From Natronohydrobacter sp. (lineage in GTDB: Bacteria; Pseudomonadota; Alphaproteobacteria; Rhodobacterales; Rhodobacteraceae), in NCBI GenBank assembly GCA_007117255.1, contig SKGU01000128.1, forward strand, positions 1 through 32,236: 32,236 nt of DNA. The letters run 5' to 3'. The number at the start of each line of letters is the position of its first letter. Position 1 is the first letter of the stretch. The notes under the pieces are model-generated. The model worked only from the letters and a program-made list of their open reading frames with translations, was not told the origin of the DNA and ran no database searches. Positions 20,484 to 23,920 of the stretch are shown here, one piece after another. Position numbers and translations under genes: made by a program.

Positions 20484-20885
20484 ATGATCATCGGGATTGG
20501 GACTGATCTGGCAAATATCGACCGGATTGCCGGAACGCTTGCACGCTTCGGTGATCGCTTCCGTCAGCGCGTCTTTACAGAGGAAGAGCGCGCCCGCGCA
20601 TCACGGCGCGACGACGACCCGGCCACTTATGCCAAGCGCTGGGCCGCAAAAGAGGCATGTTCCAAAGCCTTGGGAACAGGGCTTGCGATGGGCATTTCAT
20701 GGCGTGATATGTGGGTGACGAACCTCAAAGGGGGGCAGCCCGTGATGCACGTGTCTGGCTGGGCGGCAGAGCGTCTGGCGGCGCTGACCCCCGAAGGCCA
20801 TGAGGCCGTGATCCATGTCAGTCTGACTGACGATCGCCCTTGGGCACAGGCATTCGTTGTGATCGAGGCGCGTAAATGCGTCTGA
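20484..20885 (+). CDS. acpS: Holo-[acyl-carrier-protein] synthase
   Basis: [51 protein letters not shown]. Confidence 0.96.
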
Positions 20886-21097
20886 ACTGTTGCGCCAAGT
20901 TTCGAATCACGCGTGGCACGAACGACAAGATTTTTTCCAAACAGGGGTCAATACCGGGAAGTTGACGATACTGTTCATGTTTTGCTGGTCACGCTTTCAG
21001 CATTCACAGGAATCTCGCGCTGTGAGCAGAAAATTTCTTGCGAAATGACCCTGAGTGTTTTCATGGTGTTGCTGGGGAACATTTGAATGAGTGACGC

Positions 21098-21265
21098 ATG
21101 TGGTCTTTCTTGAATTCTTTCTGGTCGCGTGGTGACGGGACAACAACCAACGTTTCTTCGGTGCCTGAAATCGACGCATCGACCGGATTACTAGCGATGG
21201 CTGCGCTCGGTGCGGCTGTATTGTTTGCTTGGGAACGCCGTCGGCGTTTGGCCAAAAAAGCCTGA
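21098..21265 (+). CDS. VPEID-CTERM sorting-domain small protein (55 aa), putative exosortase E substrate
   Basis: My translation: MWSFLNSFWSRGDGTTTNVSSVPEIDASTGLLAMAALGAAVLFAWERRRRLAKKA*. VPEID (21161-21175) + hydrophobic TM + basic ERRRRLAKK tail is the canonical PEP-CTERM-like tripartite signal. Missing from the ORF track, which lists nothing under 60 aa. In-frame TGA at 21092-21094. Cognate exosortase gene adjacent. Confidence 0.9.
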   Translation: MWSFLNSFWSRGDGTTTNVSSVPEIDASTGLLAMAALGAAVLFAWERRRRLAKKA

Positions 21266-21303: not shown

Positions 21304-21333
21304 GAACCGCCTCATGTGGACTTGAGGCGGTTC
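21304..21333. terminator. Bidirectional terminator between the VPEID-CTERM gene and the exosortase gene
   Basis: GAACCGCCTCA-TGTGGACT-TGAGGCGGTTC, 11-bp perfect stem, followed by TTCTTT on (+); lies between the convergent stops. Confidence 0.8.
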
Positions 21334-21350: not shown

Positions 21351-22985
21351 TCAGATCAGGCCCAGATCTCCCAGTGCAATGGCTGATCCGGCGACAACAA
21401 TATTTGCCGCAATATGGGCCTGGACGGCATCGCCTACCCGGTTCCTGCGCAAGTAGACATATGCGAAGACAAGCCCGGCCAGCGTCGCTTCGACATAGCG
21501 CCCGTGCAGGATTGCAAACGCACCGGTCGAGATTGCAATGGCCAACCCCCTGCGTTGCCAGTCGTTGCCGTTGAAACGCGCCAGAAGATACCCGCGGAAG
21601 AAAAACTCTTCGATCAACGGCACCAGCAGGATCGTTCCGAATAAACGCAGAATCACCCAGATAATTGCACCTGCCAATGACATGCCAGCCAGCATGGTAC
21701 TCAATTCCGCGCCGCTGCCCGATGATCCGCCCTGCATGGCGATCCAGATCAGCCCGACACCTGCACCAAGTGCCCATGACAGACCGTCGAAATGCCATGG
21801 CAGCGCGCGAATAAGCCGCCAGAACGGCAAGAGTGCTGCCAGCATGATTGCCACACGCAACGGATAACCAAGCGCGGCAGGCGCGAAAAAGGCCGAGGCA
21901 ATCAGTCCAGACAGCATAAACGCGATGAATGGCAGGATCTGTGCGGCAATCATGTCTTGCGTGATCGGGGTAGAGGGCGCGCGTGCCTCTGCCCGATGAA
22001 GCGAGGCGGAGCGATGCACGATGATCAGGATACCCAGTGCCAGCAAGGTGAAGAAAATCCAGCCCGCGTAGCTGTGAAATCCGTCCACAGCCAGTCGTGG
22101 GGACACATGCGCGCCCAGCAACACAAGTGTAGCAATCCGCACGATATTCAGCACCCAGCTTGCCAGCAATGCCAGCGGCAGAACGATCAGCCAGAAGCGG
22201 GCATGCCGAATGGTTGCATGAAACAGCAGCGCATATAGTGCCACGAATCCGCCCACTAGAACGAAACCTTCTACACCAGAGCATTGCGCCGCAATATGAA
22301 CGGCGAAATCGTCGACACCCAGGATGAAAGTGTCGGGATCGGCGAAGGCCCCTGTGCCAAGAATGCGAAGCAGAACATAGACCAGCGCAAAGGTTAGAAA
22401 GGTAAGCGCCTCAATGTTCCACAGCGGCTGCATGGCGGCGGCCATTTCCGGCATGAAGGTCACGAAAACCAGAACCGCGCCGCCCAGCCAGCCAAGGCTG
22501 CGCAACAGCCAGCCCCAGTCAGATATTGGCGCAATCCAGCGTAGTGCGGCAGGTACGATGATCAGGCCGCCTGTGATCCAGATCGGCACGGCGCGCGCAA
22601 ACTGCTCCGGCCCGGCATCCTGCACAAGAAAAATGGCCGGGATCAGAAGGATAGCGAAGCCTGCAAATGCAAATACTCCGGCGATGTGGCTTGTGCGTGT
22701 TGTTTGTGCGGCACGCTGGGAGAATTCGGCGAAAACCGCAGGTCTTGCCAGAATCAGGACCGCGATGCCCGTGGCCAGTGCCATACCCCGCCCCAGTGCC
22801 GAGCGCAGGCCGCGGCACAGCTCATATGAACCGGTCGAGCCGCAATCGATATCAACAAAGAACTGATATATGACCGCCAGTGCAACAAGTTGCACCAACA
22901 AGATCAAGGCGCGAAACCGACCGCTATGGGCCTGCACCCGACCTGCCTCATGTCTCAGTTCGTTTCTATGATCACTGAAGGTCAT
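21351..22985 (-). CDS. xrtE: Exosortase E / CPBP-family protease fusion (VPEID-CTERM system)
   Basis: 544 aa polytopic protein. Exosortase triad-like AAQCSGVEGF (Cys codon 22281-22283), LNIVRIATLVLLG, DGFHSYAGWIFF; CPBP protease motifs VPLIEEFFFRGYLLARF (EEFFFRG 21591-21611), FAILHGRYVEATLAG, AHIAAN. Confidence 0.9.
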   Translation of the reverse strand: MTFSDHRNELRHEAGRVQAHSGRFRALILLVQLVALAVIYQFFVDIDCGSTGSYELCRGLRSALGRGMALATGIAVLILARPAVFAEFSQRAAQTTRTSHIAGVFAFAGFAILLIPAIFLVQDAGPEQFARAVPIWITGGLIIVPAALRWIAPISDWGWLLRSLGWLGGAVLVFVTFMPEMAAAMQPLWNIEALTFLTFALVYVLLRILGTGAFADPDTFILGVDDFAVHIAAQCSGVEGFVLVGGFVALYALLFHATIRHARFWLIVLPLALLASWVLNIVRIATLVLLGAHVSPRLAVDGFHSYAGWIFFTLLALGILIIVHRSASLHRAEARAPSTPITQDMIAAQILPFIAFMLSGLIASAFFAPAALGYPLRVAIMLAALLPFWRLIRALPWHFDGLSWALGAGVGLIWIAMQGGSSGSGAELSTMLAGMSLAGAIIWVILRLFGTILLVPLIEEFFFRGYLLARFNGNDWQRRGLAIAISTGAFAILHGRYVEATLAGLVFAYVYLRRNRVGDAVQAHIAANIVVAGSAIALGDLGLI

Positions 22986-23117: not shown

Positions 23118-23831
23118 TCAATCCAGCGTGGCGATCAGGCGGTTTCGGGCTTCGGGCAAGGCGCGCCCATGTGCTTCGGCCAGCCATTGATGCAGGAAAT
23201 GGCCACTCAAGCGCAGCGCTTCGCGCATGGCATTTGCGTCCATCTGAGCGCCGGGGTCGATCAGTGCAGCGGGCAGAGGCAGCAGACGCGACGCATACTC
23301 GCCCGCACCGTCATGTGTGACCGCCCGTCCGGTCCGGGGTGAAACATAGGCCAGCCCTGCGCGCGCGCCAGTTACTGCGCATTGCTGCAAATCAAGCCCG
23401 AAACCCGTCGCTTCCAGCAGTTGCAGCTCCCATATGGCATATATGCGCAACCAACCGGGCCGGGCGAGGGCATCGAGCAATTCCAGTGTTTCACTGTAAA
23501 GGCCAGGATAGGGCTGACGCTCTGGCAGGGCAAAGCGGCACAGCGCGCATATTGAACTGAGCGCGGCCAAGGCCAGGCGGTCGCCAAGAATCAGCCCTGC
23601 GCGTGCCCGTGTCAATTCGACTGTGAAACTGCCCAACTGGTCTTCCAGCCGTGCGCGCCAGGTCAGGTCCAGCTGCCCGCCCGGTTGCATTGTCGCCGCC
23701 ATCTTGCGCGAGCCGCCGCCGCGCACCACTCCGGCATGTCGTCCGTGCAGTGCCGAAAATACCTCGATGATCGCGCTGCTCTCTCCATGCGCGCGAGCGG
23801 CCAGCAATATTCCTTCGTCACGCCAATCCAT
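23118..23831 (-). CDS. recO: DNA repair protein RecO
   Basis: MDWRDEGILLAARAHGESSAIIEVFSALHGRHAGVVRGGGSRKMAATMQPGGQLDLTWRARLEDQLG. Start reassigned from 23867. Confidence 0.93.
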   Translation of the reverse strand: MDWRDEGILLAARAHGESSAIIEVFSALHGRHAGVVRGGGSRKMAATMQPGGQLDLTWRARLEDQLGSFTVELTRARAGLILGDRLALAALSSICALCRFALPERQPYPGLYSETLELLDALARPGWLRIYAIWELQLLEATGFGLDLQQCAVTGARAGLAYVSPRTGRAVTHDGAGEYASRLLPLPAALIDPGAQMDANAMREALRLSGHFLHQWLAEAHGRALPEARNRLIATLD

Positions 23832-23920
23832 GTTGCAAGGCTTGCCGCGAACGCGCTGTTGCGGCAAGGGGTTTCCTGTGCACCCGCAGCTTGTCGCGTC
23901 AATCGCAAGAAGGAAATGAG

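Follow-up and report, generated by a model that had tools for sequence, protein, structure and literature searches.

The window, i.e., the whole stretch of 32,236 nucleotides analyzed here from Natronohydrobacter sp., encodes a 55-residue VPEID-CTERM protein without a signal peptide (SP), a state that is conserved in its genus and has arisen repeatedly, as the SP was lost independently at least three times in related bacteria. The protein is probably the sole substrate of the adjoining exosortase, XrtE. Its lineage would have lost the Sec SP and kept the mature peptide, which would be inserted in the N-out/C-in orientation and processed by XrtE.

The VPEID-CTERM gene and its surroundings

The locus consists of the following features, with positions numbered along the window:

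20484–20885, plus strand: acpS, left flank of the cassette (profile match; flank comparison)
21092–21094, plus strand: in-frame TGA closing the frame 5' of the start (direct reading)
21098–21265, plus strand: VPEID-CTERM protein, 55 residues, without an SP, stop codon included (TIGR04161 match and genus orthologs)
21098–21160, plus strand: N-tail of 21 residues, an aromatic start and a Gly/Ser/Thr/Asn linker, predicted to be translocated (pN/pS, AlphaFold2)
21161–21175, plus strand: VPEID motif, predicted recognition or processing site of XrtE (start of the TIGR04161 match)
21188–21232, plus strand: lone hydrophobic helix, LLAMAALGAAVLFAW (AlphaFold2 and composition)
21233–21262, plus strand: basic tail ERRRRLAKKA with six Lys/Arg, predicted to be cytoplasmic, a positive-inside determinant (direct reading)
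21304–21333, no strand assigned: stem-loop terminator between the convergent substrate gene and xrtE (11-pair stem)
21351–22985, minus strand: xrtE, 544 residues, an exosortase with a fused C-terminal glutamic protease of the Rce1/CAAX type (TIGR04162, 492.8 bits; PF09721; PF02517)
23118–23867, minus strand: recO, right flank of the cassette (profile match; flank comparison)

The 55-residue ORF matches TIGR04161 over residues 22–50 with 53.6 bits (E 1.7e-14, cut-off 33), which is far above chance, and has orthologs in four other genomes of the genus. XrtE (TIGR04162), the enzyme expected in a genome with a member of this family, is encoded in the window. The tripartite C-terminus of exosortase substrates is complete, comprising VPEID, a helix at residues 27–54 that AlphaFold2 predicts confidently (pLDDT about 95 in its core), and ERRRRLAKKA. 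Ahead of VPEID, which starts at 21161, there are exactly 21 residues (MWSFLNSFWSRGDGTTTNVSS), as had been estimated approximately; for this N-tail, AlphaFold2 gave a short low-confidence helix (residues 2–9) and coil thereafter. The protein lacks the N-terminal SP of PEP-CTERM-like exosortase substrates.

The Shine-Dalgarno sequence in the window is weak (GAGTGA), and the four relatives of the genus have AAGGTG or GAGGTG just 5' of the ATG in the DNA alignment. A sigma-70 promoter scan gave no candidate upstream of the gene. A block at 21030–21046, about 50–70 nt 5' of the start codon, is also conserved in L031–L034 (window, AAAATTTCTTGCGAAA; relatives, AAAATGCTTGCGAAA) and is possibly a promoter or regulator site.

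Absence of a signal peptide

The original prediction held that an in-frame stop one codon before the start forbids any longer form with an SP. Direct reading confirmed the TGA at 21092–21094, which a single codon, CGC, separates from the ATG at 21098. The presence of an SP was judged heuristically, from a hydropathy window, a von Heijne-like cleavage score, and inspection by eye. The 150 nt upstream of the gene contain no SP-like ORF in any of the frames; the nearest hydrophobic mini-ORF (MTLSVFMVLLGNI, 21045–21086) has neither a basic n-region nor a cleavage motif, and nothing like it was found in the sister genomes. Scattered SP-like candidates upstream of the gene in other SP-less genomes were mutually dissimilar. 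In three SP-less clades, pN/pS was 0.29, 0.29, and 0.44 over the first 14 N-tail codons (0.29 in the window genus) vs. 0.85, 1.04, and 0.99 over the 20 codons 5' of the Met (0.85 in the window genus). Since coding constraint begins at the Met and no SP-like ORF lies upstream, the internal Met is taken as the start and the tail as a constrained peptide.

A frameshift, an assembly error, or a missed start could in principle have taken away a real SP: the window assembly is a fragmented draft, 71% complete, and apparent SP absences among GlyGly-CTERM proteins were mostly gene-model or sequencing errors (PMC3237569). However, the SP-less architecture is found in all five carriers of the genus and in 27 further copies in other genera, no SP is encoded in any frame upstream of the window gene, the upstream DNA is unconstrained, and a Shine-Dalgarno-like sequence stands just 5' of the internal Met in most SP-less genes (in genus g306 it often overlaps the in-frame stop). 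Conservation in the genus and across independent genomes rules out a frameshift or sequencing error at 21092–21097 as the source of the SP-less form, and the probability that the absence is an artefact is negligible.

Distribution in Rhodobacteraceae

The survey covered 298 genomes of the same family as the window, with counts that treat related genomes as independent. A VPEID-CTERM match was present in 34 genomes, XrtE above the cut-off in 35, and both in 32; VPEID-CTERM occurred alone in two genomes and XrtE alone in three, a pairing that is close to strict. The exceptions (XrtE above the cut-off without a TIGR04161 match in G007, G017, and G142, the reverse in G048 and G135) are possible cases of divergent or unannotated partners. 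A single match was found in 32 of the 34 carriers, usually adjoining xrtE, and the window genome likewise has one match beside xrtE in an assembly that is 71% complete. This arrangement, one target per genome beside its enzyme, is that of a dedicated single-target system. Together with the close pairing of the two genes, it favors the earlier suggestion of a dedicated peptide system over bulk protein sorting. A contig scan with XrtE returned only one relative, from Natronohydrobacter sp. The match between L047 and the XrtE fragment of G310 suggests that the window genus includes Natronohydrobacter.

The homologs do not turn out to be long secreted proteins, the finding that would have refuted the original prediction; they comprise about 50–100 residues, and most have an SP. 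In other genera, most substrates carry a cleavable SP, ending for example in ASAQ or ALAQ, followed by a mature region of 6–46 residues. In the window genus, the gene is present in 5 of 37 genomes and the SP is absent in all five; the N-tails share an aromatic-rich start (MFNFWNWF or MWSFLNSFW), a Gly/Ser/Thr linker, and VPEID. SP-less forms are also found in all 10 carriers of genus g306 (MWWDSWRIFFGGG...). Genus g281 is mixed, with 14 SP-less carriers (MFDWFWNGWYGG..., MWNWFF...) and the remainder SP-bearing, and a fourth genus, g28, has three tandem SP-less copies.

Two loci have unusual arrangements. In G027 (L073, 4291–5258), the three tandem SP-less substrates are diverged and lie beside one xrtE, and a fourth, SP-bearing copy is remote. 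L021 (G217) has, on the minus strand, three VPEID motifs in one open frame; its middle helix runs into VPALAQ and may serve as an internal SP for the next peptide, as in a small polyprotein.

Evolution of the signal peptide state

XrtE trees were built from 64 rows (the careful tree) and from 91 rows. The two SP states require four changes on the XrtE tree, three of which are forced by well-supported branches in the 64-row tree. Uniting all SP-less rows in one clade was rejected by the AU test (p-AU 4.2e-6), and joining any two of the three main SP-less groups was rejected as well (p under 2e-5). These tests rule out a single origin of the SP-less forms. A separate fourth loss in L119 is unsupported, since joining L119 to the g281 group gave a p-AU of 0.30. 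As L119 may belong with that group, the number of origins is put at no fewer than three.

Although the root itself is unproven, these changes are likely to have been losses, because the whole VPEIS class, which lies beyond the midpoint root from the SP-less groups, is SP-bearing, and because published exosortase substrates have SPs. Such recurrent loss implies that membrane entry of the SP-less peptides is probably tail-first and follows a route other than that of the SP.

XrtE and the two-gene cassette

The xrtE gene is convergent with the substrate gene and lies 85 bp past the substrate stop. The catalytic Cys, Arg, and His of the exosortase are invariant in the 64 XrtE rows, and the protease motif residues EE, R, H, and H..N are conserved in rows from SP-less and SP-bearing systems. 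These data bear on whether the SP-less protein is a substrate at all. It might instead be a small single-span protein that is not exported and acts within the membrane, for example by regulating or inhibiting XrtE or as one of its subunits, with a VPEID motif that binds and is not cleaved. Its size and single helix suit known small membrane subunits, the genes pair one to one, and constraint is strongest in the CTERM part (pN/pS 0.08–0.18 vs. 0.29–0.52 in the tail). However, both catalytic centers of XrtE are intact where the partner is SP-less, SP-bearing homologs show every element of the sorting signal, and constraint extends to the tail, all of which makes a non-exported subunit rather unlikely.

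The same conservation argues against the view that the SP-less systems are decaying remnants in which export was lost and the tail drifts. In two close SP-less genomes (L054 and L131, from G415 and G925), the xrtE frame appears interrupted between the exosortase part and the CAAX part, through either gene splitting or decay, and the presence of the system in only 5 of 37 genus members could also be read in this way. Yet in three SP-less clades, purifying selection acts on the tail as well as on the CTERM part, with tail pN/pS well below 1, the catalytic residues are conserved, and SP-less systems persist over deep branches. Decay is therefore very unlikely, and a functional substrate of XrtE is the preferred reading.

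In eight cassette-less members of the genus (L179, L184, L187, L188, L191, L192, L193, and L196), the site is empty, with acpS followed directly by the convergent recO. The window and three relatives carry the substrate gene and xrtE after acpS in this same place, and G310 shows the same order up to the end of its contig. Thus, the two genes behave like a self-contained insertion, which agrees with a dedicated system. Elsewhere, in L153–L163 and L073, xrtE is flanked by two large ORFs of about 1272 and 463 residues that resemble an RND-type efflux pump and an adaptor for it. Such transporter-like ORFs occur in the clade around g28, g306, and g281, in SP-less and SP-bearing members, and are absent in the window genus; hence, they were taken as shared synteny, and a conserved partner gene besides xrtE was rejected. 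A further proposal is that XrtE itself or another dedicated factor, not YidC or Sec, inserts the SP-less protein. The tight genetic pairing and adjacency would agree with it, but the window-genus cassette has no additional conserved gene and exosortases are not known to have insertase activity, so that insertion of this kind is unlikely.

Properties of the N-tail and proposed mechanism

The SP-less N-tails comprise 20–32 residues with 0–2 Lys/Arg and are accompanied by 3–6 basic residues after the helix. By analogy, such lengths and charges would fit the needs of SP-free N-tail translocation. The window protein, with an N-tail of 21 residues that includes one Arg and with six Lys/Arg behind the helix, shows the short Lys/Arg-poor tail and basic C-flank of a Pf3-like mode. 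The mean number of Lys/Arg is 0.53 in SP-less N-tails vs. 1.58 in SP-bearing VPEID mature tails, a modest difference between phylogenetically non-independent sequences (Mann-Whitney p = 8e-4, uncorrected for relatedness). Within the first 13 positions, the aromatic share is 37% in SP-less proteins, 23% at the mature start of SP-bearing VPEID forms, and 5% in the VPEIS class. In sequence, the SP-less N-tail is similar to what SP-bearing relatives carry as their mature peptide, as illustrated by MWWDSWRIFFGGGSTPTASS beside QSYSWWSSWWGNWNYGGGGTTSSS; indeed, the FLNSFW segment of the window protein matches the aromatic-rich start of that peptide. The helix of SP-less proteins is not more hydrophobic than that of SP-bearing VPEID forms, so no compensating change of the helix was found, and compensation for SP loss by a more hydrophobic helix is not seen in the VPEID class.

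A four-step mechanism is proposed. Translation would begin at 21098, as backed by constraint and conservation. Membrane targeting would then rest on the single C-terminal helix, and the short Lys/Arg-poor N-tail would cross ahead of this helix, probably via YidC and/or SecYEG, with the Arg cluster remaining inside to give the N-out/C-in orientation. The C-terminus should be inside because ERRRRLAKKA follows the sole hydrophobic segment of the protein, which is C-terminal, and a passenger this short may cross as an N-tail without the help of an SP. In the third step, VPEID would lie at the periplasmic face, the topology that SP-bearing relatives reach after signal peptidase cleavage. Judging from its family, XrtE would cut at VPEID with its Cys-Arg-His exosortase site, possibly together with the fused glutamic protease, and would perhaps transfer the N-terminal part to an acceptor. 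The product would be an aromatic-rich, Gly/Ser/Thr-tailed peptide of about 20–30 residues.

N-tail translocation and a 20–30-residue product had been offered in the original prediction as alternatives. The conserved and recurrent SP-less form, the Lys/Arg-poor tails, and the basic C-flanks favor the former, and comparative evidence also points to the latter. The opposition between them does not hold, since the two are compatible. It is conceivable, although we suggest it only tentatively, that exosortase systems repeatedly became dedicated, SP-independent peptide factories encoded by two-gene cassettes. In these, a single-span precursor of 50–60 residues would insert with its N-tail first, and XrtE would free an aromatic-rich peptide of 20–30 residues from it or pass this peptide to an acceptor, for a role in signaling or in modification of the surface.

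Comparison with known systems

The family is already known, but searches of the open literature found no paper on VPEID-CTERM and no description of its SP-less state. To date, PEP-CTERM proteins have been described as carrying an SP in 97% of cases after start-site revision (PMC1569441) and, in another report, "always" (PMC3237569). Being conserved, recurrent, and under selection, the SP-less forms are a true exception that breaks the published rule that exosortase substrates always carry an SP. They also provide natural matched pairs in which one sorting substrate occurs both with an SP and lacking it, some of them within one genus; these pairs make the delivery of substrates to exosortases and the smallest unit that an exosortase matures testable. 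Moreover, searches for sorting signals that require an SP will overlook real substrates.

The window system is a member of VPEID-CTERM/XrtE (TIGR04161, TIGR04162), with which it shares the C-terminal domain, the cognate exosortase-CAAX fusion, the adjacent genes, and the single substrate per genome. Most other members have a cleavable SP, whereas the window lineage and three others do not. PEP-CTERM/EpsH has the same tripartite sorting signal (motif, helix, and basic cluster) and an exosortase, whose active site was placed at the periplasmic face by Haft et al. (PMC1569441); unlike the window system, it has many substrates per genome, nearly always with an SP. JDVT-CTERM/MrtJ and the single-target rhombosortase pairs are, like the window pair, dedicated two-gene systems of one protease and one target, but their enzymes belong to another class than XrtE, and the accessible parts of the reports describe no SP-less targets (PMC11980579; PMC3237569).

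The closest analogy of mechanism, with SP-less and SP-bearing substrates as counterparts, is offered by the Pf3 coat protein and the M13 procoat. Pf3 coat has no cleavable leader, and M13 procoat has one. Both are Sec-independent YidC substrates (PMC9360617), and in N-out proteins the charges at the N-terminus determine how far insertion relies on YidC and on the proton gradient (PMC9360617; PMC8548208). Although they are phage coat proteins of unrelated sequence without a sorting enzyme, they are short single-span proteins that end in the N-out/C-in orientation, as predicted for the window protein.
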